From Ruminococcus flavefaciens (GTDB lineage: Bacteria > Bacillota > Clostridia > Oscillospirales > Ruminococcaceae), in contig JAMPIL010000013.1 of NCBI GenBank assembly GCA_023662725.1, positions 1 to 45,028 on the forward strand: a DNA stretch of 45,028 nucleotides, written 5' to 3'. Position numbers and translations under genes: made by a program. Position 1 is the stretch's first letter. Each line of letters opens with the position of its first letter. Below the pieces are notes generated by a model. It was given only the letters and a program-made list of their open reading frames with translations, did not search any database and had not been told where the DNA came from. Of this stretch, positions 3,115 through 43,781 are shown one piece after another.

Positions 3115-5973
3115 TTAATTCTTGAAAATCCAGCGAACGTAATTATATATATGCGCACGTATTGAATTTCCTCCATGATATCCTCCGGTTACATATTGCC
3201 AGATATGAGGAACTCCGTTGTTTGTAAGATCATCATTATATCCTGATGGTGTTGAATATACTACAGTATCGTTGCTTCCTGCGGTAAGAAGAAGGAGATA
3301 TGGTTCAATATCATCGTATTTGAAATCAGCAGTGCTTACAACATCGTGTACTCCCGGCGCCGGACAAATTGCACCTACATATCCGAAGAGATCAGGACGC
3401 TTCATGCCAATTATAAGAGCTTCACGTCCTCCCATTGAAAATCCGGTTATAGCAGTATTATCACGTCCGGTTTTTACAGGGTAATGTGATTCAATATAGG
3501 GCATAAGATCCTTAGTAAGATCATTAATAAAATTATCATATGCTGCATTATTAGCATCATCCATTGCAGTACAGGCAGATTGCGTTGCACTCGAATAAAT
3601 ATCCGGGAACACAACTATCATTTCTTCTGCTTCTCCTGAAGCAATAGCATTTCCGATTATCTGACGTGTTCTCATACTTTCATCAGATTCATCTATAAGA
3701 GTATCTTCATTCTGCCAATATCCATGCATAGCGTAAAGAACAGGATATTTTTTATCCTCACTGTAATTCGCAGGAAGAAGAATGTTAAAATTTTTCTGCC
3801 GGTTACAGGTAGTTGACCAATAGCTTTGTTTGCTTACTGTTCCATATTGTACTCCAGGTTTTTCGTTTCTTTCTTCAGCCGGTTCTGTTTCCTTTAAAAG
3901 AGGAGCGACCTTTTCTGTATATTCTTTCATAGTCATTTTGTTAGCCGGAGCTTTCTCAAATTTGTTTATTACTCCAAGGATATACTCCTGAAGCATTACA
4001 AGATCCGCAACCGTTGTTTTGCCATCCTGGTTTACATCTGCGGCAAGAGCTGCAACATTGCTTTTAAAATTTCCAAGAATACCTCTTCTTGCTGCTGCGA
4101 GGTCAAATGAATCTATCGTGCCGTCGCAGTTTACATCTCCAAGAATAAACGTTATCTCCTCTGCGCCTTTTATCACCGTACCGGGAAGCGCTCCGATAGC
4201 TTCGTCAACATAAAAATTATTAGCGTTATTTTCTGTTTCAATATAAAGTTTCATATCAGATGCGTCTGCCGGAATAGTATAGTTGGTATTGGCGAGCTGA
4301 ACCCATTCTCCTTTAACAGCTTTAGCCTGCGCAATAGATGAATAATGAGTTTCGCCGTCAGAACCTGTATATTCAAGCTTCATGAAGAAATTATTTACAG
4401 CGTCTCCGTCAAAATACATAACATCTGCACTGAAACTGAACTCATTACCCGGAACAAATACCTTGGGATTAAGCTTTTTCATTCCACCATTCCATGCTGC
4501 TGTTCTTTCCTGAACAAGAAGCGATTCATTTCCCTCATACGCCGTGCGTCCGCTAAGAATAACACTTGCTGAACCTCTGCTTTCCCAATCAAAAACATCT
4601 CCTTCAAACGTATCGTGGAAGAAATAACCGTTTTCATCTGGTTCGATACCGGGAGTTACTCCGTTTCCTTCAAGAGATACCACAAAAGTGGAAACGCTTT
4701 CTGCAGGAAGCTGTGCATAAAAGCTTCCGCCGGTATATTCAAGATTCTTTGTAAGAGCAATATTTTCATTTGCCGATGTTCTGTATCGATCAACATTTAC
4801 TATGTTTTCACCGCTTCCGATAGAAAAGAGCTGAGCGTATCCCTCTGTGCTCTTATTAACGGCAACGATCGTTACCTGATTGTCGTCATTTTTATATGCA
4901 GAAACAAAAACATCTTTTGCCGGCTGTTCTGTAGCTTCAATGCGGATGTCGCCCGGACGTACAAACTTTGAATACTGAGCCATGTTGTAACCTCTTTTGG
5001 TTATTGCACCGTTTTCATCCATAAGACCGTAGCTTCTTCTGATGTACCACCATGTATAAACGCTCATATTTCCAACAACGAGAGCATTGTGGATGTTTTC
5101 AGATACTTGCAGAGCCTCTGGCCAACGATTAGCTGAATCTGCGTCACTGTTGGGAACGTAAACCTCTGTCATCCAGATTTCTTTACCGCAATTTTCAAGT
5201 TCGGGATAATCCATCCAATCTCTTGTCGTACCATACATATGAGTGCCGAATACGTCACAGTTAGCGAATGCCTTGCTGTTCGCCATGATTTTTTGATAAA
5301 ATTTCTTTCCGCCGTCGTTCACCCATGAAGCGTTTAAAGGAGCATATTGAAAGGATTCAGGTGACATGAGTCTTGTGCTGGTTATCTTATCGCCATAGTT
5401 TGCAATAAAATCAACCGTTTCATCTGTTGACCAATATGTCCATTCAGAAGCATAGTCAGGCTCATTTTGAACAGATATAGAGTATAGATCAACGCCGTTG
5501 TTTTTCATATATGTACCAAAATCATTAAGATGCTGAGCATAAGCTCCGTAATTCGACTTAGGAATATGAAGCTTACCGTTGCTTCCACCAGATTCGGCAA
5601 GATTTGAAGGTGGTTCCCACGGTGATGCAAAAACAGTGACACCATTTTCAGATGCATATTTAGCGGTAGGAACAGCCTTGTTCCATTGATTCTTATCAGG
5701 GTTTACGAAAACACGAAGAATGGTAAGCCCCATTTCGTCAGCGCCATTTCCGAAAGCCGTTTGTCTTTGCGATTCCGTCATATCCTGACCTGTCCATTCC
5801 GGATGATTAATACCGCCAAAGCCTCTGATAGTCTGATATTCTGTTGTCGTATCAATAACAACTGTTTCAGCTGCGACGGTAATTTCTGTCGGTGCAATAC
5901 AGAATCCGGTAAAAATTATAGCTGACGCTGTTATAGCAGAGATAAATTTTTCACCTATTGATTTAAGTTTCAT
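3115..5973 (-). CDS. Cellulosomal glucuronoxylanase-esterase: GH30-CBM22-dockerin-CE1
   Basis: This 952-residue secreted protein combines backbone and side-chain cleavage of xylan. A signal peptide (about 1-35, ending near VAAE) precedes a GH30 domain (about 36-440, closest to subfamily 8) with acid/base Glu in SVQNEPD (about 170) and nucleophile Glu in WMTEVY (about 269). A CBM22-like module (about 445-600) follows, then a dockerin (about 607-672) with two calcium loops, DVNCDGTIDSFDL and DVNQDGKTTVADL. The C-terminal CE1 esterase domain (about 715-952) has the nucleophile elbow GFSMGG (Ser about 845) and a late His in GGYHGGNS or RAHIY; such domains are feruloyl or acetyl xylan esterases. 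The start has AAGGAG seven bases upstream. It has its own promoter, sharing an operator-like element with the GH10 gene. Confidence 0.93.
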   Translation of the reverse strand: MKLKSIGEKFISAITASAIIFTGFCIAPTEITVAAETVVIDTTTEYQTIRGFGGINHPEWTGQDMTESQRQTAFGNGADEMGLTILRVFVNPDKNQWNKAVPTAKYASENGVTVFASPWEPPSNLAESGGSNGKLHIPKSNYGAYAQHLNDFGTYMKNNGVDLYSISVQNEPDYASEWTYWSTDETVDFIANYGDKITSTRLMSPESFQYAPLNASWVNDGGKKFYQKIMANSKAFANCDVFGTHMYGTTRDWMDYPELENCGKEIWMTEVYVPNSDADSANRWPEALQVSENIHNALVVGNMSVYTWWYIRRSYGLMDENGAITKRGYNMAQYSKFVRPGDIRIEATEQPAKDVFVSAYKNDDNQVTIVAVNKSTEGYAQLFSIGSGENIVNVDRYRTSANENIALTKNLEYTGGSFYAQLPAESVSTFVVSLEGNGVTPGIEPDENGYFFHDTFEGDVFDWESRGSASVILSGRTAYEGNESLLVQERTAAWNGGMKKLNPKVFVPGNEFSFSADVMYFDGDAVNNFFMKLEYTGSDGETHYSSIAQAKAVKGEWVQLANTNYTIPADASDMKLYIETENNANNFYVDEAIGALPGTVIKGAEEITFILGDVNCDGTIDSFDLAAARRGILGNFKSNVAALAADVNQDGKTTVADLVMLQEYILGVINKFEKAPANKMTMKEYTEKVAPLLKETEPAEERNEKPGVQYGTVSKQSYWSTTCNRQKNFNILLPANYSEDKKYPVLYAMHGYWQNEDTLIDESDESMRTRQIIGNAIASGEAEEMIVVFPDIYSSATQSACTAMDDANNAAYDNFINDLTKDLMPYIESHYPVKTGRDNTAITGFSMGGREALIIGMKRPDLFGYVGAICPAPGVHDVVSTADFKYDDIEPYLLLLTAGSNDTVVYSTPSGYNDDLTNNGVPHIWQYVTGGYHGGNSIRAHIYNYVRWIFKN

Positions 5974-14878: not shown

Positions 14879-14968
14879 GAATCTGCCTTTAAAAGATATC
14901 CTGTTCTCCATTTGCATAAAATGAAATCTGGCTGTGAATTTTCTCCTTCTGCTTTTGAAGGCAGATTC
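14879..14968 (+). promoter_or_regulatory. Long-range inverted repeat in the serpin mRNA leader
   Basis: GAATCTGCCTTTAAAAG (14879-14895) pairs with CTTTTGAAGGCAGATTC (14952-14968), with 16 Watson-Crick pairs and one G-U pair over 17 positions. The 56-base loop is pyrimidine-rich and includes CCTGTTCTCC, which could pair with the AGGAGG at 14981-14986. The leader from the proposed promoter to the ATG is about 135 bases. Confidence 0.5.
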
Positions 14969-14993
14969 TCATAAATTTTCAGGAGGTATTTAT

Positions 14994-17216
14994 ATGAATT
15001 ATAAAAAAATAATATCAGCAGTGATGTGCTTATGCCTGACTGCTCCGATGACTGCAAATTTCCTGCCGCCAAAAACAAATGCCGTAGTTGTCGATGAGGA
15101 CGTTAAAACGTCTATTTATGATATTTATATGTATAAAAATTACGGCGAATATGTTGAAATTACTGCAACTTCGACTAAAGCCGAAAATGAAATAATAGTC
15201 CCGGATGAAATTGAGGGAGTTCCGGTCAAAGTAATAGGCGAACACGCTTTTGCAGGCGTATCAAACGTTACATCTATAACTCTCCCGGACAGTGTTACGG
15301 AAATCGGCAAACAGGCATTTTCTATGTGCAGTAAGCTCGCTTCCGTAAATATTCCATCAGGAGTTAAAGAGATCAGCGATGAAGCATTTTTAAACTGTGC
15401 ATCCCTTACTAAAATAATTTTACCGGAAAATCTTACAAGTATTGGAATTCGTGCATTTTTCGGATGTTCTAAGCTTGAAGCGATCGCTATTCCCGACAGC
15501 GTTACATATTTGGGCAAGCAGGCATTTGATTCCTGTACTTCGCTTTCTTCCGCAAATATACCGAAAGGCATCACTGTTCTTGAAGATATGGTATTTAACG
15601 GCTGTGCCATAACGCAGCTTATTGTTCCTAAAAATATTGATTTTATCGGGAAACAGGCTCTTCCGAAAACCTTGATATATCTTATCATAGTAAATCCCGA
15701 TTGTCAGATAGATGAAGAATATCATATGTGGAATATAACAACGGACGACTGTCTTATTATTGCACCTCCGTACAGCAGTATACGAGAATTTGCATCGAAA
15801 TATGGTTTTGCATCTATTAATCTTCCCGGTTCGCTGTGTGACCCTGTGCTTATGGGAGATGTTAACAACAACGGCGAAATAGATATCGCTGATCTCGCTA
15901 TGCTTGAGAAGTATCTGCTCGGTAAAGGGGAACTGGATGAATGGAAGCTTGCCGATCTTTGCGAAGATGGTGTAATTGATTCGTTCGATCTTGCTCTTAT
16001 GAGAAAAACTCTGATAAATACCGTTGGGTATGAAAGACCTCAGCCTGATGATACCACTGTAAATCTCAGTGAAAGATTTGAAGCTCAGTCTACTGAAGGC
16101 GCAAAAGCAGACGAAGAATTCATCATGGCTCAAACTAAATTTGCACTTGATCTTATGCAGAAAAGCGTCTCAGAGGATACAAATACGCTCATTTCGCCGT
16201 ATTCCGTGATGCAGGCTCTTTCGATGACGGCTAACGGCGCAGACGGTGAAACTCTTGCGGAAATGGAAAAAGCTCTCGGAGGAATATCCATAGATAAGCT
16301 TAACGAATATCTCTACACTCAGCGCACATCCCAGCCGAACGATGAAAACTGCAAGCTTTCCACAGCCAATTCTATCTGGTTCAGAGACGATTCCGAAAGG
16401 ATAAACGTTCTTCCCGAATTTTTGCAGAAAAATAAAACTTATTATGATGCCGATTCATTTAAAGCTCCTTTTGATGAATCAACAGTTAATGATATAAATA
16501 ATTGGGTAAATGAAAAAACCTATGAAATGATACCCAAAATAATCAACGATATTGATCCGGATGTTGTTTCATTTATTATAAATGCAGTCGCTTTTGACGC
16601 AAAATGGATGAAGCAGTATGAGGAAAATCAAATAAGCAGCGGAAATTTTACTGCTTATGACGGAACTGTTCAAGAAGCCGAAATGCTGAATTCTATAGAA
16701 TCTCTTTACCTTGAAGATGATAACGCTGTTGGTATTTATAAATACTATGCAGGAAAAAAATATGCGTTTGCTGCTCTTCTTCCTGATGAGGGAATTTCAG
16801 TGAGCGATTACATTGCCGGACTTACTCCGGAATCGCTTAATAAAATTCTTTCTTCTCCGAAATATGTAAATATCGAATGCTCCCTTCCTAAGTTCAGCTA
16901 TGATTATGAAAATGAATTATCAGATGATTTGCAGTTGATGGGTATGAAGCAGGCGTTCAAGAGCGGTAGCGCAGATTTTTCAAGAATGTCGGAAATATCG
17001 CCTTACATAAGTAAAATTCTTCACAAAACACACATAGAGCTTACAGAAAGCGGCACGAAAGCCGCAGCCGTTACGGCCGTTGAATTGAGCAATGATTGCA
17101 TACTTATACCAGATAAAAGTGTTGCTTTTGACCGTCCGTTCGTTTACTGTATTGTTGATACCGAAACATCGATTCCTGTATTTATCGGAACTCTTACGAC
17201 TATTCCGGAAGAATAA
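14994..17216 (+). CDS. Cellulosomal serpin: LRR-dockerin-serpin
   Basis: The secreted 740-residue protein has a signal peptide (about 1-27), BspA-type leucine-rich repeats (about 60-270; VTSITLPDSVTEIGKQAFS and related 23-residue units), a dockerin (about 283-345; DVNNNGEIDIADL, then DLCEDGVIDSFDL), and a serpin domain (about 360-740). The serpin has the breach sequence SPYSVMQALSMTANGADG and an inhibitory-type hinge ESGTKAAAVT (residues 685-694), so it probably inhibits proteases by loop insertion. Counting from the hinge, P1-P1' is Asp701-Cys702; counting back from VAFDRPF gives Leu704-Ile705. It would protect the cellulosome from proteolysis; dockerin-serpins are known in Clostridium thermocellum. 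The start is ATG 14994, seven bases after AGGAGG. Confidence 0.93.
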   Translation: MNYKKIISAVMCLCLTAPMTANFLPPKTNAVVVDEDVKTSIYDIYMYKNYGEYVEITATSTKAENEIIVPDEIEGVPVKVIGEHAFAGVSNVTSITLPDSVTEIGKQAFSMCSKLASVNIPSGVKEISDEAFLNCASLTKIILPENLTSIGIRAFFGCSKLEAIAIPDSVTYLGKQAFDSCTSLSSANIPKGITVLEDMVFNGCAITQLIVPKNIDFIGKQALPKTLIYLIIVNPDCQIDEEYHMWNITTDDCLIIAPPYSSIREFASKYGFASINLPGSLCDPVLMGDVNNNGEIDIADLAMLEKYLLGKGELDEWKLADLCEDGVIDSFDLALMRKTLINTVGYERPQPDDTTVNLSERFEAQSTEGAKADEEFIMAQTKFALDLMQKSVSEDTNTLISPYSVMQALSMTANGADGETLAEMEKALGGISIDKLNEYLYTQRTSQPNDENCKLSTANSIWFRDDSERINVLPEFLQKNKTYYDADSFKAPFDESTVNDINNWVNEKTYEMIPKIINDIDPDVVSFIINAVAFDAKWMKQYEENQISSGNFTAYDGTVQEAEMLNSIESLYLEDDNAVGIYKYYAGKKYAFAALLPDEGISVSDYIAGLTPESLNKILSSPKYVNIECSLPKFSYDYENELSDDLQLMGMKQAFKSGSADFSRMSEISPYISKILHKTHIELTESGTKAAAVTAVELSNDCILIPDKSVAFDRPFVYCIVDTETSIPVFIGTLTTIPEE

Positions 17217-36155: not shown

Positions 36156-36168
36156 TGAATAGAAAAAA

Positions 36169-36185
36169 CTCCGCTATATGCGGAG
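36169..36185. terminator. Bidirectional terminator between the GH5 gene and the TIR-SPFH operon
   Basis: CTCCGC (36169-36174) pairs with GCGGAG (36180-36185), flanked by an A-run on the left and a T-run on the right. Confidence 0.85.
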
Positions 36186-36193
36186 CTTTTTTA

Positions 36194-36889
36194 TTATTTG
36201 AAATTTTTACAGACATTGTTTCTATCATTAAGAACGTTTTCAACTTTCTGACAGAGAATAGCTGCATCCGATGAATTACCGTTCATTACTGCCGTTTCAA
36301 GCTGTGAAAAACATCCCATAAGATTCTGCTCGAGTGTATAAAGCTTTGGATTGCTGACAGGATCACTATAGCGGAACGATTCAGCCAGTTTCTCAAGTCG
36401 TGAACGAAGTTCTGTATCGCTTGTTTTATTGATAAGATTCTCAGATTTTGTGCGGAGCTGCTTTATGGTCATCGTATCAGCAGACTGAACCGATTCGATC
36501 TGAACGATCTTATTTCTCGCCATATCAACAGATATACTGCTTATAAGCGCAGCAGCAAGTATAATTACACATAGAATAAAAGCTATCCAAACAGGAAAGT
36601 CATCAATAAATCCAAGTCCGAACAGAGCAAGGCTTAGAATTGTCTGAATACCGAGGTAAATGTATCCTACTCTGAAAACCGGGAATCCAAGAACACGGCT
36701 TTTCAGGTCTGAAGCATTATCGTATGCAGTTTTGAAAATCGGCACTTGCAAGACTATCGCAATAAGCTCAGCGGCATAGGCTATCCAGAAAATTCCTTCT
36801 TTCGGAAACGGTACTGCAAATGCTATAACGGAGAAAACTATCGCTATTATTCCAAGAATTATCCAAATTCGTGAATTATTTTTTTTCAT
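36194..36889 (-). CDS. Four-helix membrane protein, third gene of the TIR-SPFH operon
   Basis: The 231-residue protein has four hydrophobic stretches (about 8-28, 31-50, 72-95 and 99-120; IWIILGIIAIVFSVIAFAV, IFWIAYAAELIAIVLQVPIF, YIYLGIQTILSLALFGLGF, VWIAFILCVIILAAALISSI) and a helical cytoplasmic tail (about 125-231; MARNKIVQIESVQSADTMTI, ENLINKTSDTELRSRLEKLA). I recognise no family with a known role. It begins two bases after the stop of the SPFH gene, so the two must be co-transcribed and probably coupled. Membrane location fits a partner or anchor for the SPFH protein. No catalytic motif is visible. Confidence 0.75.
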   Translation of the reverse strand: MKKNNSRIWIILGIIAIVFSVIAFAVPFPKEGIFWIAYAAELIAIVLQVPIFKTAYDNASDLKSRVLGFPVFRVGYIYLGIQTILSLALFGLGFIDDFPVWIAFILCVIILAAALISSISVDMARNKIVQIESVQSADTMTIKQLRTKSENLINKTSDTELRSRLEKLAESFRYSDPVSNPKLYTLEQNLMGCFSQLETAVMNGNSSDAAILCQKVENVLNDRNNVCKNFK

Positions 36890-36891
36890 AC

Positions 36892-38706
36892 TTATTCTCC
36901 CCTCTTCTTTCCGCAGTTATTGCAGAAATTTCCTGTTATCCCCTTGTTTCCGCATTCGCAGTCCCATGTTTCAGGTGATTTTGGTTTCTTTGCTCCGCAA
37001 TTGCTACAAAAATTTCCGATTATACCTTTGTTTCCGCATTCGCAGTCCCATGTTTCAGGCGGTTTCGGTCGCCTTGCCCCACAATTGTTACAGAAGTTTC
37101 CAGTTACACCTTTATTTCCGCATTCGCAGTTCCACGTTTCAGCAGGCATAGGCTTTTTACTGCCGCAGATGTTACAGAAATTCCCCGTAACTCCATTATT
37201 ACCGCATGAGCAGTTCCATGTATCGGTGATTGCATTGCTCATACTTCCACCAATCGCTGAGGCTGTTTCGGTAAACGGAGTCATTGCTTCTTTGGTCAGA
37301 TTCATAACTCCTCCCATTGCACCAAGCGAGATTCCGAGTCCGGCTATATCCCCAAGACTTCCGCCGACTGTTCCTCCCATATTTTCGACTGCTCCAAGAC
37401 CTACCTGACGAGCAGTTTCTTGCTGGTATGTATAACCTTTCATGCGCATTTCTGCCGCTTCAGCTTCGGCTCTGAGCTTCAATGCTTCAGCATCTCCTTG
37501 TGCGCCGATGATTTTCATTCTTGCAGCAGTCTGAGCTTCGACTGTCTGACGTTCTGCGCTTACTTCAGCTTCGGCTTTGCGAATCTGCTCCTCACGGATT
37601 TTCAGGTACATATCGGCATGCTGCTGTTTAAGACGACTGAAATTAGGATCGTCATCAGGAGTCATGATCGTTGTAACGTAAAATTCCGGCATTAAAAGTC
37701 CGTAATCAACAAGCATTTCGTTGATGCAGTCACGGAGATTTTCGGAAATCATGTCGAGCTTTTCGTCAACTTCAAGGATATTTATCTGACATTCCTTGAT
37801 GATTCTGGCAAGATTGCTCTTTACTTTAGTCATTATCATCGCTCTGAATTTAGCGATAGTTGGCTTCATTCCGTAATTTCCGTCGATCACGTCTTCGTGA
37901 GTGAACTCTGCCGCCGTTCCGACAAGCTTGATGAGAAGCTTTCTTGAATCGCATACTTTCAGGCTGAATTGTCCTGAAGCGCCTATTTCAATGGGCAATC
38001 CGGTTGCAGGATCGAAAAATCTTACCTTTGAATCCGTTCCCCATTTAATTCCCATCTGGACAGTTTTGTTAATGAAGTAAACCTCGGAATGGAAAATGGT
38101 ATCGGCATTTGTCGGCAGCTTGTAGAGCTTTTCCAGAAGAGGAAGATTCTGAGTAGCGAGAGTGTATCTTCCTGCTCCGAAAAGATCGAGAGCCTGACCG
38201 TCACGGAAGAAAATTGCTTCCTGCGATTCGTGAACTATGAGCTGCGAACCGAGGTTGAAGTCCTCTATCGGATGCTTCCAGACAAGAGTCTGATTATCGC
38301 CTTCGTACTTGATAAGACTTGCCAGTCCCTGATTTTTTAGTTTTTCCTTTTCAGCCTGCGACTGAACGTCGATTACGGTATCGCAAAGCGGACAGGTATA
38401 CTCGGCGGCATTTTTGTCCGCAGAGAGATTACACGAACAGCTCGGACAGGTAAACTCAACCTTGTTGAAAATGCTCTCTCCGCTGTTGATTTTCTCTTTG
38501 CAGACTGGACATATAGCCTTTTCTCCCTTGGACTGGTCAAAAATGACGTTGTTTCCGCAGTGCGGACACATTCTCGATGTCATCTTATCGGTTCTTACGT
38601 TTATTGTATAGCCGCAGGTGCAGTCGATTTTCTTCCTTGCAAAGAAGCTGTTCGATGCCTGCGTGTATTTCCCGCATGACGGGCATTCTATTACGAATTT
38701 GGACAT
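36892..38706 (-). CDS. SPFH-domain protein with N- and C-terminal zinc ribbons
   Basis: The 604-residue protein starts with zinc-ribbon pairs (about 8-130; CPSCGKY, CTCGY, CPHCGNN, CPVCKEK, CPSCSCN, CPLCDTV). An SPFH/band-7 domain of the bacterial 'virion core protein' type follows (about 140-360; LIKYEGDNQTLVWKHPIEDF, EAIFFRDGQALDLFGAGRYT), then a coiled coil (about 375-430; RKAEAEVSAERQTVEAQTAA), a Gly-rich stretch (GAVENMGGTVGGSLGDIAGL) and four tandem 28-residue zinc ribbons of pattern W-x-C-x-C-G-N-x-G-x-x-G-N-F-C-x-x-C-G. SPFH proteins form membrane-bound rings or microdomains. It lies 18 bases after the TIR gene and two bases before the membrane protein gene, in one operon. Eight-cysteine-rich ends suggest protein or nucleic acid binding. 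Confidence 0.88.
   Translation of the reverse strand: MSKFVIECPSCGKYTQASNSFFARKKIDCTCGYTINVRTDKMTSRMCPHCGNNVIFDQSKGEKAICPVCKEKINSGESIFNKVEFTCPSCSCNLSADKNAAEYTCPLCDTVIDVQSQAEKEKLKNQGLASLIKYEGDNQTLVWKHPIEDFNLGSQLIVHESQEAIFFRDGQALDLFGAGRYTLATQNLPLLEKLYKLPTNADTIFHSEVYFINKTVQMGIKWGTDSKVRFFDPATGLPIEIGASGQFSLKVCDSRKLLIKLVGTAAEFTHEDVIDGNYGMKPTIAKFRAMIMTKVKSNLARIIKECQINILEVDEKLDMISENLRDCINEMLVDYGLLMPEFYVTTIMTPDDDPNFSRLKQQHADMYLKIREEQIRKAEAEVSAERQTVEAQTAARMKIIGAQGDAEALKLRAEAEAAEMRMKGYTYQQETARQVGLGAVENMGGTVGGSLGDIAGLGISLGAMGGVMNLTKEAMTPFTETASAIGGSMSNAITDTWNCSCGNNGVTGNFCNICGSKKPMPAETWNCECGNKGVTGNFCNNCGARRPKPPETWDCECGNKGIIGNFCSNCGAKKPKSPETWDCECGNKGITGNFCNNCGKKRGE
36897..37230 (-). repeat. Four tandem 84-bp coding repeats (zinc ribbons)
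   Basis: The 3' part of the SPFH gene holds four units, each encoding CxCGNxGxxGNFCxxCG. The shared plus-strand core CCGCATTCGCAGT recurs at about 84-base intervals (near 36951, 37035 and 37119), with a diverged fourth copy near 37202. Confidence 0.8.
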
Positions 38707-38724
38707 TTCTTTTACTCCTCTTCA

Positions 38725-40764
38725 TTACAGATTGACATAGAATTTTCCGACCCAGCCAAGCTTTTTGAGTTCTTTTTTGAGGCTTTCATCGATGTACCAA
38801 TATTTTGGATATGGATATTTGCGCTCAATCTCCATCTTTCTGCCGAAACCAACCTGGTTATTCCATGTTGCGCCGTAGCTTATCAGCATTTTTACTACTT
38901 CAATTTGATTCGCTCCCCTCAGTCCATTACCCATATCTGTTATTGCATACGATATCATGGATTTTCTAACAAAATTCCCCTTATCATCATAAGAAGATTC
39001 AACACGGTCGGCTTTAGCACCATTTTCAAGCAGAAGCTGTACAATATGCACATTTCTTGCGTTCCATATGGCATCTCCAAGAGCGCTGAATGCGACATCC
39101 AGATCTCTGTCTTTACTTTTCCGGCATCCGTTAGGATCTGCACCGTTTGCAAGGAGTAGCCTGACGATTTCTGCTTTATTATCGCAGATTGCCCTTGAAA
39201 GTATCGGTACCTTTACAGGCGGATAATCGTATTCGTTGTAGTAATCTTCCGTTATTGTGTTAGGATCAGCTTTGTATTTTAGCAGAAGCTCAACCATTTC
39301 AGCATTCTCGGTGCAGCATATTGCATCATCAAGGGCACACCGCTTTTCTGTGACACCTTTATTTTTCTTTACTCTTTCAGAATTCGGATCTGCACCAACT
39401 TCAAGGATATTCCGCAGGATGACTGCGTTATTAAGCTCAAGGATAACATAATTTACTATCGGACAGCTCTCCGTATCTGCATACTGGCTATCAGTAAGTT
39501 TGTAATTCTTTGTTAGCATTTCCGGATGTATCGAGAGAAGATATTTCAGTCGCGAGGTGAACGAGGATTCTGCGAATATATGGAAGCATTTTTCGTAGTT
39601 ATCGGTGATATATCGTTTCTCAAAGCTGCTCGGCTCAGGCGAAAGCTGCATCAGTGTCTTGATGTATGAGCCGTTTTGCTCTACGCTTAATATCAGACCA
39701 AAATAGGCTTCGAGGCATTCGGAGTCCAACTGGAGAGCCTCTCTGAAAAGTGACTGTGCATTGGAGATATTATTATTCTCGTAGTCGAGGAATGCAAGCT
39801 TTATTATATTCTGCACCTTGTTCTGTTCCGAGAGTGTTGATGACTGTGTATGAGCAAATTCATTGTGTGCCTTGTTCATGATCTTTGCAAGTCCACGAAG
39901 AAGATCCTGCATATAGCCGACCTTTGAAACATCCTGCGATTGAAGCGCAACAAATTCATCGGGGAGGTCATAGGGAGTCATATCACGGTAACAAGGAATC
40001 AGAGTTTTCTTCTGTCCTTGTTCAATCAGAGAAAGATATCTGCTCCACTCGTTTTTGACCCAAACCGCATTGAAATGCTCCGGCTTTGTTCCCAGAACAA
40101 GCATGATCTTTGAGCTGTTCAGAGCCGCAAATATGTATGGCTCGTAAGCAGAACCGAGCTTATCTTCAAGCGTGATTCTGGAGAAAAAGACCTTATATCC
40201 CTGTTTGGTCAGCTCATTATAAATATCCTGAGCGATTACGCTGTCGGTAGTACGGTTTCCTGCATTGTCGCTTTCCTTGTAGCATATAAAAATATCGAAA
40301 GGCTCTTCCTTGGAGGAAATTTCGAGAATCTGCTTCTGTACATTATCAACATACATTGCCTCCGAATTATAGACCGCACGGGCTATCCCGTCGCAGTTTT
40401 TCACTGCGGACAAGTAATCCTCATCCTCTAAAATCGACTTGAACTGCGTCCTGTGACAGGTCGGAATACGCTTGTTTGTTTTCGGATCGACAACATACTC
40501 TATGCCATAACGGCAAAGGCACATTCCCCAATGAGCTTCGGCTTCATTCGGAGCTTCTGCGAGAATGTTTTCATAAACAACCGCAGCTTTGTCAAATTCC
40601 TTGTTCATACGATAATGGTTTGCACGGTCGAAAAGCTGATTTCGCTTTTCGTTATCTAATTTCGGTAAGGTCTGAGCTGTTCCGCAGTATTCGCACTCAC
40701 AGACAGTCATACCCTCGTTCACATTTAATGTGCCGCCGCACATTTTACACTTAAATATCGCCAT
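38725..40764 (-). CDS. TIR-domain protein with zinc ribbon and ankyrin repeats
   Basis: The 679-residue protein starts with a zinc ribbon (CKMCGGTLNVNEGMTVCECE, then YCGTA; four Cys) and a TPR-like helical segment (about 40-80). A TIR domain follows (about 154-300): FDIFICYKESD, the SRITLEDKLGSAYEPYIFAA segment, SSKIMLVLGTKPEHFNAVWV and KNEWSRYLSLI. Glu208 in AYEPYIF aligns with the catalytic Glu of NAD-cleaving TIR domains. Residues about 330-420 are again helical, and about 430-650 are ankyrin repeats (NAVILRNILEVGADPNSERV, NAEMVELLLKYKADPNTITE, KAEIVRLLLANGADPNGCR, NVHIVQLLLENGAKADRV). Bacterial TIR proteins are known effectors in anti-phage systems; the role here is not shown. It is the first gene of the operon, with its promoter at 40795-40823. 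Confidence 0.85.
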   Translation of the reverse strand: MAIFKCKMCGGTLNVNEGMTVCECEYCGTAQTLPKLDNEKRNQLFDRANHYRMNKEFDKAAVVYENILAEAPNEAEAHWGMCLCRYGIEYVVDPKTNKRIPTCHRTQFKSILEDEDYLSAVKNCDGIARAVYNSEAMYVDNVQKQILEISSKEEPFDIFICYKESDNAGNRTTDSVIAQDIYNELTKQGYKVFFSRITLEDKLGSAYEPYIFAALNSSKIMLVLGTKPEHFNAVWVKNEWSRYLSLIEQGQKKTLIPCYRDMTPYDLPDEFVALQSQDVSKVGYMQDLLRGLAKIMNKAHNEFAHTQSSTLSEQNKVQNIIKLAFLDYENNNISNAQSLFREALQLDSECLEAYFGLILSVEQNGSYIKTLMQLSPEPSSFEKRYITDNYEKCFHIFAESSFTSRLKYLLSIHPEMLTKNYKLTDSQYADTESCPIVNYVILELNNAVILRNILEVGADPNSERVKKNKGVTEKRCALDDAICCTENAEMVELLLKYKADPNTITEDYYNEYDYPPVKVPILSRAICDNKAEIVRLLLANGADPNGCRKSKDRDLDVAFSALGDAIWNARNVHIVQLLLENGAKADRVESSYDDKGNFVRKSMISYAITDMGNGLRGANQIEVVKMLISYGATWNNQVGFGRKMEIERKYPYPKYWYIDESLKKELKKLGWVGKFYVNL

Positions 40765-40794: not shown

Positions 40795-40870
40795 ATTATA
40801 TCATAATTCACCAAAAAAATCAATCCTTTGAGCAAAAAAATGTTGACAAAACCAGATTAAAGTGTATAAT
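40795..40870. promoter_or_regulatory. Divergent promoters of the TIR operon and the LRR-transglutaminase gene
   Basis: On the minus strand TTGATT (40818-40823) and TATAAT (40795-40800) have a 17-base spacer and serve the TIR operon. On the plus strand TTGACA (40843-40848) and TATAAT (40865-40870) have a 16-base spacer. The two -35 boxes are 19 bases apart. Confidence 0.75.
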
Positions 40871-40922: not shown

Positions 40923-43241
40923 TTGAATACTTTAAAAAAAATAATCGCATATTCTCTTTCCCTGATGCTTAGTATTTCAGGTTCTTCATTTTTTGCAGTT
41001 AATAGTAAAATTGTCCGGAATACAGTATTTGCGGAGGATAAACAATCTGACGACTGGGAATATAAGATATATGATAAAATAGACGACATCAGCTCTTCTC
41101 CGTGCGTAGAAATAACAAAATACTGCGGTAATGAATCTATCGTAGATATTCCGGTAAAAATCCAAGGATATCCTGTTGTTGGAATTGCCGGAAAACCATT
41201 TAGCGAAAATATCGTAACTTATGATATAAATATTCCTTCGTCAATAAAACGTTTTGAAGAAGGATTTCTTGATAATTCGAATGTTGTTTTTCTAACTTTT
41301 GAAAATCTTAAATTCAGTATAGAAAATGAAAATAAATTGACATTGATCAGTTATGAAGCCGATGAAGAAGAATCAAATGCTGATATTGAAGTTCCCTCCT
41401 CTTTAGCGGGATATACTGTAACAGCTTTGTGGGATTCCGTTTTTTCTGACAATAAAACTATCAAATCCGTTAAACTGCCTGATACTATAAATTATTTTGG
41501 CAGAAATATTTTCACAAATTCTGCCATTGAAAAAATCAATATCCCAAAATCGCTCCAAATGATCCCTTCCAACACATTTAAAGGCTGTTCCTCATTAAAT
41601 GATGTTGAGTTAAATGATAATGTAATTATTGCTAAAAATGCTTTTAAGGATGCTCCTGTCATACTGCCGGAAAGCGCTTTATCTTATGAAGCAGGATTTT
41701 GTCCAAATTCATTCGACCGTGTCACTGTCAATAAAAATAATTTTAAATATACAATTTCTTATGAGAGTGATAATGGCAGTTACAGCGTTACAGTTGATAA
41801 ATATGTTCCAGCTCTTTCTGATTCAAATAAAAAAATTGACGTTGAAATTCCTGGACAAGTATTCGAACTTCCTGTTACAAAAACAGGAGATTATTTCTGG
41901 GATGACTGCAACAGTTCTGGAATTATTCTCAATTCAATAATTTTCCCCTCTGAAATTCAAGAAATCAGACAATTCACATTGGATAATCCCTCGGAACTAA
42001 AGTTCGTAACGATCAACGCCAAAAATATTACAATAGAATCGAATATGTTTGAGAATACCGGAATCGAGGAAATAACTTTACACGGTTCATGTAATATAGA
42101 AGAAAAATCATTTTCAGAATGTGAGAATCTAAAAAAAATCACAATAACCGGCGTTGCAGAAAATATTAAAATTGCCAATCAGGCTTTTTTGAACTGTACC
42201 GCTCTTGAGGAGATAAGTTTTCCCAATAATTCTGATGTCGAGATCAAGACTTTTGCTTTCAGAAACTGCATTTCACTTAAAGACGTTGAAATTAACGGAA
42301 ACGCTGTTATTATGGCAAATGCATTCAGAAACTGTGACAATCTTGAAACGATCAGCATCAGCGGAAATGCACAGCTATCTACAAATGCCTTCCTTGATAA
42401 TAAGGCATTAACGAATATTTTTGTTGATACAAATAACACTTTGGATGGAAGCGCTTTCAACGGCTGTTTAAATCTTATGAAAATCAATTCCGTTACTGCT
42501 TTCGACAACCAAAATAATAATCTTGTTCCTGAACTTGAAAGTTTCATTTTAAACAATTTTAACGGAGCAGAAAATGTCGGATTTATTAATCTTTATATTC
42601 AGTCACAGGCAAATAGAATCGTTTCAGAATATACAAATGATAATATGAGCGATATTCAGAAGGCAAAGGTTCTTCATGATTGGATATGCAATAAGGTTTA
42701 TTACGATAATGAAGATCCCGATAATCCTAAAACGCAAAACGATGGATCGGTTTTTATGAATAAATCAACAATCTGTGAAGGATACGCTAAAGGATATAAT
42801 CTGCTTCTAAAAGCTGCCGGAATAAAATCTTTTTATGTGCACAGCAACAACCATGCCTGGAACATAATAAAACTTGGCAATCAATACTTTCATGTCGATA
42901 CAACATGGGATGACGGAGATAAAATTTCTTATAAATGGTTTCTAAAATCCGATTCGGAAATACGTTCTGAAACTTCTTCACACAGCCAATGGTCAGCTGC
43001 CACACTCTCTCCGCTTCATGATTCGGACAATAATATGTTTTTGCCAGAATGTAAATATTCTATGGGTGATATAAATACTGATGGAAAAACAAATGTTGCC
43101 GATCTGGTTGTTCTAAACAGATATATTCTCGGAAACGTTCAATTAGATTCAGATAATTACATTCTCTCCGATCTGAATTTCGATGGCACTACAAATTCTT
43201 TTGATATGGTTTGTATGAGAAAGCTTATTTTAAATAACTGA
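40923..43241 (+). CDS. Cellulosomal LRR-transglutaminase-like protein with dockerin
   Basis: The 772-residue secreted protein has a signal peptide (about 1-38), BspA-type leucine-rich repeats (about 60-530; IPSSIKRFEEGFLDNS, ECENLKKITITGVAENIKIA, FRNCDNLETISISGNAQL), a transglutaminase-like domain (about 540-690) and a dockerin (about 700-770; DINTDGKTNVADL, DLNFDGTTNSFDM). The catalytic triad is visible: Cys618 (STICEGYAKG), His644 (NNHAWNII) and Asp659 (HVDTTWDD). Such domains are cysteine proteases or peptide cross-linkers. It could act on plant or bacterial surface proteins while held in the cellulosome; this is inference. The start is TTG 40923 after AAGGAGGG, as no ATG precedes the signal peptide. 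Confidence 0.9.
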   Translation: MNTLKKIIAYSLSLMLSISGSSFFAVNSKIVRNTVFAEDKQSDDWEYKIYDKIDDISSSPCVEITKYCGNESIVDIPVKIQGYPVVGIAGKPFSENIVTYDINIPSSIKRFEEGFLDNSNVVFLTFENLKFSIENENKLTLISYEADEEESNADIEVPSSLAGYTVTALWDSVFSDNKTIKSVKLPDTINYFGRNIFTNSAIEKINIPKSLQMIPSNTFKGCSSLNDVELNDNVIIAKNAFKDAPVILPESALSYEAGFCPNSFDRVTVNKNNFKYTISYESDNGSYSVTVDKYVPALSDSNKKIDVEIPGQVFELPVTKTGDYFWDDCNSSGIILNSIIFPSEIQEIRQFTLDNPSELKFVTINAKNITIESNMFENTGIEEITLHGSCNIEEKSFSECENLKKITITGVAENIKIANQAFLNCTALEEISFPNNSDVEIKTFAFRNCISLKDVEINGNAVIMANAFRNCDNLETISISGNAQLSTNAFLDNKALTNIFVDTNNTLDGSAFNGCLNLMKINSVTAFDNQNNNLVPELESFILNNFNGAENVGFINLYIQSQANRIVSEYTNDNMSDIQKAKVLHDWICNKVYYDNEDPDNPKTQNDGSVFMNKSTICEGYAKGYNLLLKAAGIKSFYVHSNNHAWNIIKLGNQYFHVDTTWDDGDKISYKWFLKSDSEIRSETSSHSQWSAATLSPLHDSDNNMFLPECKYSMGDINTDGKTNVADLVVLNRYILGNVQLDSDNYILSDLNFDGTTNSFDMVCMRKLILNN

Positions 43242-43409: not shown

Positions 43410-43781
43410 GGGGGCGTAAAGGTTTCGACGAGGATGCTGAAGTGTGATAAGCGAGCGGAGCTGCGGTGTAATCTCCTTAAACTGCACCACGTTTTAAATA
43501 TAAACGCTAGAAATAATATTACGGTTACTAGAAATAGTGAACTGGTAGCAGCTTAAGTCTGCTTCCGTCCTCCGACAGATTACCGCGGCTGTCGTTTGGG
43601 CGTCGATTAGCGGTGAACGATTCTCCGGTGTGTCCGTACCGCTGAATTGTATTCGGACTACCTCCTCTTTCTGCCCGTTTATCGGCGGTTTGCGTTGGGA
43701 ATTTCTATAGGTAAAATACGCTCGTAGAAAGTTGCATGAATGTGTTTTCGGACAGGGGTTCAATTCCCCTCGCCTCCACCA
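43410..43781 (+). ncRNA. ssrA: Transfer-messenger RNA (tmRNA)
   Basis: tmRNA frees stalled ribosomes and tags the unfinished protein. The 5' end GGGGGCGTAAAGGTTTCGAC is diagnostic, and the 3' end has a T-arm (GGGGTTCAATTCCCC) followed by CGCCTCCACCA with an encoded CCA. GGGGGCG (43410-43416) and CGCCTCC (43771-43777) form the acceptor stem with one G-U pair. The best tag frame resumes at GCT 43506, 96 bases from the 5' end, and encodes ARNNITVTRNSELVAA before TAA 43554-43556. The C-terminal VAA fits tags seen by ClpXP. Sixteen codons is longer than the usual ten or so. It has its own promoter and terminator. Confidence 0.95.

Follow-up and report, generated by a model that had tools for sequence, protein, structure and literature searches.

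A TIR, SPFH and four-helix membrane protein gene set recurring in gut Clostridia, with an ankyrin-ended member in Ruminococcus flavefaciens

TIR domains that cleave nicotinamide adenine dinucleotide (NAD) are marked by a WxxxE motif, and some Thoeris loci carry several TIR genes, as do some of the loci described here. In Bacillus subtilis, the SPFH protein YdjI depends on YdjG and YdjH at the membrane, to which it brings PspA (PMC8581546). Diversified sensors linked to TIR domains are known in multicellular bacteria (PMC10907252), and DUF6273, a domain that resembles C-type lectins and is represented by the tentaclins (PMC10743442), is a target of diversity-generating retroelements (DGRs) in Faecalibacterium prophages, where its C-terminal part holds the variable regions (PMC11792537). 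We describe an operon that joins a TIR protein to an SPFH protein and a small membrane protein, located in a 45,028-nucleotide stretch of Ruminococcus flavefaciens DNA (contig JAMPIL010000013.1 of assembly GCA_023662725.1), hereafter the window.

The minus strand of the window carries three open reading frames (ORFs) in the order TIR, SPFH and membrane protein (679, 604 and 231 amino acids), with intergenic gaps of 18 and 2 bases and a purine-rich stretch before each start codon. The arrangement agrees with a first-pass annotation of the same DNA, which had also placed one promoter ahead of the first gene; a promoter-like site (TTGATT-17-TATAAT) was found there as a consensus match only, and promoter- and terminator-like sites are no more numerous in the region than in shuffled sequence. 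The same annotation knew of no described system with this composition. Neither NCBIfam nor PADLOC returned a family above cut-off or strongly scoring for any of the three proteins, and a literature search found no TIR-SPFH system; the three-gene set, which recurs in gut bacteria, is apparently undescribed. Our preferred reading, with a probability of roughly 0.55, is that it encodes a membrane-scaffolded, three-part TIR receptor, signaling or NAD-cleaving (NADase), of a diversifying and probably anti-phage conflict system.

The TIR, SPFH and membrane protein genes are co-inherited neighbors in many Clostridia. In the GTDB collection, at least 587 stretches encode a relative of the TIR module (two patterns, at most two stretches per gene), and the 80 loci compared here are 79 from the best 80 of these plus one viral contig, hence the nearer relatives. 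The first-pass annotation had made its proposal depend on conserved linkage of the TIR and SPFH genes, and all three genes stand together in 50 of the 80 loci. At least one partner is present in 56, with TIR plus membrane gene in three loci and TIR plus SPFH in another three. The TIR gene is alone in the remaining 24, five of which have more than 8 kb of sequence on either side. Two of these solitary genes (L113 and L137) come from metagenome-assembled genomes (MAGs) that hold a full operon elsewhere (L107 and L120), and one locus was scored as TIR-alone (L089), yet its contig stops within the apparent zinc-ribbon start of an SPFH gene. All 217 triad ORFs lie in the same orientation, and 44 of 48 SPFH-membrane pairs are separated by no more than 100 bases. 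One such pair can have as many as four TIR genes beside it (L158). According to NCBI ranks, Clostridia account for 70 of 79 loci; single MAGs labeled Treponema, Alistipes and planctomycete may be misbinned.

Co-occurrence across genomes was counted for the TIR module and the membrane protein, with P values that are overstated because the genomes are related. Within the family (148 genomes), the membrane protein was found in 10, the TIR module in 13 and both in 7 (0.9 expected, P 7e-7); within the class (291 genomes, with G000 and G112 having contributed rows to the search models), the corresponding counts were 22, 18 and 14 (1.4 expected, P 3e-15). In 13 of these 14 genomes the two genes share a contig and lie at most 3 kb apart; in three of the 13 (G157, G251 and G433) the membrane protein is matched in its helix half alone. 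This kilobase-scale linkage is not explained by kinship alone. Among 199 genomes of the phylum, the TIR module was matched at E 1e-40 in its own genome only, and it is rare beyond the class. The host genome has a further TIR pair on another contig, without an adjoining SPFH or membrane gene, and a single membrane-protein match in total, so that the scaffold encoded in the window may also serve this unlinked pair.

Variant layouts were seen as well. One contig (L071/L118) holds an operon copy with several frame breaks in its TIR, SPFH and membrane genes. Five loci (L074, L079, L080, L087 and L088) have an SPFH gene and a small membrane-like gene without TIR, and L079 additionally has a zinc ribbon-TPR (tetratricopeptide repeat) gene and a second membrane-like gene, a layout that recalls ydjGHI. 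Small genes reading as ribbon-helix-helix proteins, possible regulators, lie 5' of some TIR or SPFH genes (L114, L133 and L087). In L078 (726-2774), a zinc ribbon is fused straight to a TIR-like domain whose WxxxE segment is absent in the alignment; the product adjoins another TIR gene and is possibly a degenerate partner.

The TIR domain recognized by the first-pass annotation in the 679-residue protein was matched by Pfam (TIR_2 at residues 157-279), together with ankyrin and TPR matches, and its best fold matches are among TIRs known to cleave NAD. In all 58 aligned modules, W235, E239 and the zinc-ribbon cysteines C6, C9, C24 and C27 are invariant, and so is E208. The segment W235-VKN-E239 aligns, via the relative L131, with the WxxxE motif of AbTir. 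By reference to the residue numbers of AbTir and SARM1, the predicted catalytic-type glutamate is E239 and not E208, to which the annotation had assigned this role. Fold and conserved WxxxE glutamate together support the prediction that the domain is an NADase. The earlier idea of an NAD-cleaving or signaling module tethered to a membrane scaffold thus keeps the backing of gene linkage, TIR fold, WxxxE motif and the YdjI precedent, and needs correction in its catalytic residue. That the domain is instead a scaffold that cleaves no NAD, as in the adaptors of animal Toll-like receptors, we consider highly improbable.

Cysteine pairs occur in both large proteins, as the proposed zinc ribbons of each would require. 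For the SPFH protein, ribbons had been described at both ends; CxxC/CxC pairs are indeed present at both ends of the window copy, and among relatives the C-terminal ribbons are general (45 of 51), whereas the N-terminal ones are a minority trait (12 of 51). The third product, described earlier as a small membrane protein, has four predicted membrane helices. Its AlphaFold2 model is all-helical, with the fourth membrane helix continuing into a helical bundle; the protein has no Pfam match above cut-off, and fold comparison of the model gave no convincing match.

An SPFH protein paired with a membrane protein could also belong to an envelope-stress or membrane-surveillance module, in which the two would act like YdjI and YdjG/H, with the TIR protein replacing PspA as a signaling or repair partner. 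The dependence of YdjI on two membrane proteins and its recruitment of PspA (PMC8581546) fit this explanation, as do genomes in which the SPFH and membrane genes lack a TIR match (G142, G136 and G083) or in which SPFH lies beside a different small, apparently membrane-bound protein (G048 and G059). However, the window operon has no PspA-like gene: none of its three proteins has a Pfam match to PspA, and a terminator-like hairpin lies 3' of the membrane gene. A housekeeping module would also not be expected to have exchanged and hypervariable C-termini, TIR genes in tandem or SIR2, HEPN or TIR cargo, and we regard this explanation as rather unlikely.

The TIR receptors proposed here combine a constant N-module (zinc ribbon, TPR and TIR) with an exchangeable C-terminus. 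Compared with the N-module of the window protein, those of 13 other loci show 45-66% identity. For the C-termini, 108 TIR proteins were reduced by removing open-ended, short, X-bearing and partial ones (92 left) and then near-duplicates; in the resulting 88, DUF6273 was found in 44, RCC1 repeats in 8, BspA-type leucine-rich repeats (LRRs) in 3 and InlB-like repeats in 2. Of the 30 families matched by these tails, the 25 listed include no ankyrin family, and the ankyrin tail of the window recurs in L073 (44% over residues 1-601). A tree was built from 97 N-modules, with crude labels for the tails (motif, hidden Markov model and hydropathy) and with 33 of 92 inner branches open. Its parsimony minimum was 29 tail changes, between the least possible number, 6, and the shuffled-label mean of 47.6; tails are therefore inherited for some time and then exchanged. 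Supported sister pairs with unlike tails are L143 (RCC1) and L131 (DUF6273), L145 (LRR) and L138 (DUF6273), and L095 (DUF6273) and L096 (helices), separated by path lengths of 0.04-0.23 changes per column. Loose DUF6273-like pieces, some perhaps the tails of broken genes, lie near TIR genes in 6 of the 80 loci, and in L078 the membrane protein, not the TIR protein, carries a DUF6273-like end (identified by motif).

Exactly one membrane helix is predicted C-terminal to the TIR domain in 51 of the 88 proteins, two to four in 19 and none in 18, the last including 10 with DUF6273 and 4 with RCC1 tails. All 51 one-helix receptors are richer in K/R before the helix than after it (mean 7.0 vs 1.8 per 15 residues), and 46 of the 88 have one helix followed by at least 80 residues, with a predicted N-in/C-out topology. 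Because a TIR that uses NAD would be inside, a tail behind a single helix is predicted to be outside. The helix-less proteins apparently use the same domains within the cell, so that DUF6273 and RCC1 seem to work on both sides of the membrane. The window protein, with its ankyrin C-terminus, has zero predicted membrane helices. The 46 N-in/C-out proteins, and predicted outer domains that include BspA-type LRRs and InlB-like repeats, would also suit surface sensing or recognition of kin and competitors, in which the receptors read neighbor, host or fiber ligands outside the cell and regulate through a TIR-made signal. The 18 helix-less members, the helix-less and ankyrin-ended window copy and the toxin-like cargo genes are at odds with such a role, which appears decidedly unlikely.

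Variation among the DUF6273 ends was studied in 25 distinct ends of equal length out of 33 found, 8 of other lengths being set aside; the 25 come from 18 loci, and 24 are in frame with the TIR motif. The segment between the motifs WWLRSPG and RPALW interleaves near-invariant codons with codons whose first two positions are free and whose third is mostly C or T. At the 20 variable columns (entropy of at least 2.2), 131 of 150 four-fold codons end in C or T; for 29 control columns of equal variability, drawn from the preceding 120 codons, the proportion is 121 of 273 (P 4e-19). Bases at codon positions 1 and 2 were A 329, G 259, T 188 and C 74 in 17 columns, variable columns 2, 13 and 16 being omitted from this tally. 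The third base of variable codons switches between C and T in 44% of pairwise comparisons across genomes, so that one common template does not serve all DUF6273 ends. Two TIR genes of one MAG (L107 and L113) share 92% identity in the N-module; around the segment, identity falls from 90% over the preceding 300 bases to 70% inside (57 of 81) and recovers to 97% beyond. In their codon pattern, the DUF6273 ends bear the signature of adenine-templated mutagenesis, like DGR targets.

Several searches for the template argue against current mutagenesis in these genomes. No template repeat was found in the fetched loci, which are drafts, among 30 of 45 BLAST matches from 12 genomes, or in four viral loci with DUF6273, and the sole match to a template pattern in 16 genomes or records was a variable repeat itself. 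A crude motif scan of the fetched loci found no reverse transcriptase. RVT_1 was present in 4 of 10 genomes searched, in no case less than 100 kb from a TIR locus on the same contig; these reverse transcriptases are on other contigs or, in the genome of L124, about 150 kb from the TIR locus, and near three of them there was no template resembling the DUF6273 ends. The approach works, since a like detector picks out, in genome G440, a true template and variable repeat adjacent to a reverse transcriptase. That DGR, in a prophage-like region of contig 2 (locus L179), has its template near 4310-4420 and its variable repeat near 3148-3258, and it adjoins a reverse transcriptase of 449 amino acids; of the 18 mismatches in 100 bases, 16 fall at template A. 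Draft genomes, action in trans or the capture of cassettes diversified by phages are possible explanations for the missing template and reverse transcriptase.

Cargo genes above the Pfam cut-off lie in or directly beside the operon, on its strand, in 9 of the 80 loci. They encode SIR2_2 proteins (L096, L138 and L153), DUF2971 (L102, L120 and L159), a RiboL-PSP HEPN protein (L101), DUF4365 (L121) and a second TIR (L131). Matches below the cut-off were to SIR2_2 (L098 and L159) and to HEPN types (L123, L153 and L168). Conflict systems are known to use several of these as effector domains. In a PADLOC scan, the cargo genes were indistinguishable from distal flank genes, partly since the distal set includes strong JetB and MzaA matches.

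On the receptor reading, the SPFH and four-helix proteins would form a membrane assembly, as SPFH biology and YdjI suggest, on which the TIR protein would dock through its constant zinc ribbon-TPR N-module. The exchangeable C-terminus would sense a cue, through cytosolic ankyrin repeats in the window copy and, in relatives, through DUF6273, RCC1 or LRR domains that often have a predicted position outside the membrane. Binding would cluster the TIR domains and lead to NAD cleavage via E239, which would halt the cell or make a signal for the accessory SIR2, HEPN or second-TIR effectors of some operons. Defense as the purpose of the gene set is what we infer. More tentatively, gut Clostridia might possess a repertoire of immune receptors shaped like Toll-like receptors, with a constant cytosolic zinc ribbon-TPR-TIR NADase, one helix, an exchangeable outer domain, most commonly a C-lectin-type DUF6273 with a ligand face hypermutated in the manner of DGRs, and an SPFH/four-helix scaffold, the window operon being an ankyrin-ended member. 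If so, single-celled gut bacteria would have receptors of animal-like layout, with TIR inside and recognition outside, and a pre-diversified binding face; anticipatory recognition in bacterial immunity would extend beyond multicellular lineages, and SPFH proteins would gain a place in TIR signaling. The unannotated genes would become a testable set, with at least 587 matching stretches in public genomes, up to two per gene.

The features of the window operon are listed in Table 1. Its two flanking genes lie on the plus strand and appear, from sequence reading and not from a family scan, to encode secreted proteins with dockerins. The divergent one (40923-43241), preceded by a perfect match to TTGACA-16-TATAAT, reads as a BspA-like, secreted LRR protein bearing a transglutaminase-like part and a dockerin. 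Elsewhere in the window are a tmRNA gene (43410-43781, plus strand) and a gene (14934-17216) whose product reads, likewise by sequence, as LRR, dockerin and serpin.

Table 1. Features of the operon, in window coordinates
Feature	Position	Strand	Basis
Promoter-like site TTGATT-17-TATAAT, 5' of TIR gene	40795..40823	-	Consensus match only
TIR gene, 679 aa (amino acids): zinc ribbon, TPR, TIR, TPR, ankyrin	38725..40764	-	ORF, Pfam
N-terminal zinc ribbon of TIR protein (C6, C9, C24, C27)	40684..40749	-	Conserved cysteines
TIR fold, residues 154-300	39865..40305	-	
E208, invariant, distinct from WxxxE glutamate	40141..40143	-	Alignment
W235-V-K-N-E239, WxxxE motif with predicted catalytic glutamate	40048..40062	-	Alignment; motif as generally known
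Ankyrin repeats, residues ~486-585, C-terminal sensor-like part of window copy	39010..39309	-	Pfam Ank_2
SPFH gene, 604 aa	36892..38706	-	Band_7_1 E 3.8e-39
N-terminal zinc ribbons of SPFH protein	38386..38685	-	CxxC/CxC at residues 8, 29, 47, 66, 87, 105
SPFH (Band_7_1) domain, residues 148-351	37654..38265	-	Pfam
Four C-terminal zinc ribbon repeats of SPFH protein, 28 residues each	36913..37212	-	CxC/CxxC at residues 499-595; 84-bp direct repeats
Membrane protein gene, 231 aa: four membrane helices, then cytosol-predicted helical bundle	36194..36889	-	Helix prediction; AlphaFold2 mean pLDDT (model confidence) 91.5
Terminator-like hairpin, 12 pairs, 3' of membrane gene	36163..36191	-	Consensus match only

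Thoeris, AbTir, SPARTA and SpbK share with this gene set a TIR fold with WxxxE, and differ in their partners: in place of ThsA, Ago or an NLR, the TIR protein here is accompanied by an SPFH protein and a four-helix membrane protein, and no PADLOC match to a ThsA-type effector was found at E 0.1 among the TIR partners in the window operon. Animal Toll-like receptors resemble 46 of the 88 relatives in having TIR inside, one helix and an LRR-type or other domain outside. Their domain order is reversed and they have no SPFH partner, and there is no evidence of a shared ancestry for the layout; the window protein lacks a helix to separate TIR from recognition domain, and 51 of the 88 relatives have exactly one. 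Like YdjG-YdjH-YdjI with PspA (PMC8581546), the set has an SPFH protein and a membrane protein that could bring a soluble partner to the membrane, and the window operon has the Band_7_1 SPFH and membrane partner of that type. The likeness to YdjI is drawn from its description, and the partner there is PspA, of ESCRT-III fold, whereas here it is a TIR protein with exchangeable ends. The NTPase-centered DGR conflict systems (PMC10907252) likewise tie variable C-lectin-type sensors, some predicted extracytoplasmic, to TIR or other effectors. As described there, they have STAND or MoxR NTPases, a reverse transcriptase and template-variable repeats; in the present set neither reverse transcriptase nor template was found beside the genes, none of the three proteins of the window operon has a Pfam match to such an NTPase, and the hosts are mostly gut Clostridia. 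Finally, the DGR targets of Faecalibacterium prophages (PMC11792537) and the tentaclins (PMC10743442) have the same Pfam domain, DUF6273, as the TIR tails; those are phage proteins, whereas here DUF6273 forms the end of bacterial TIR proteins.
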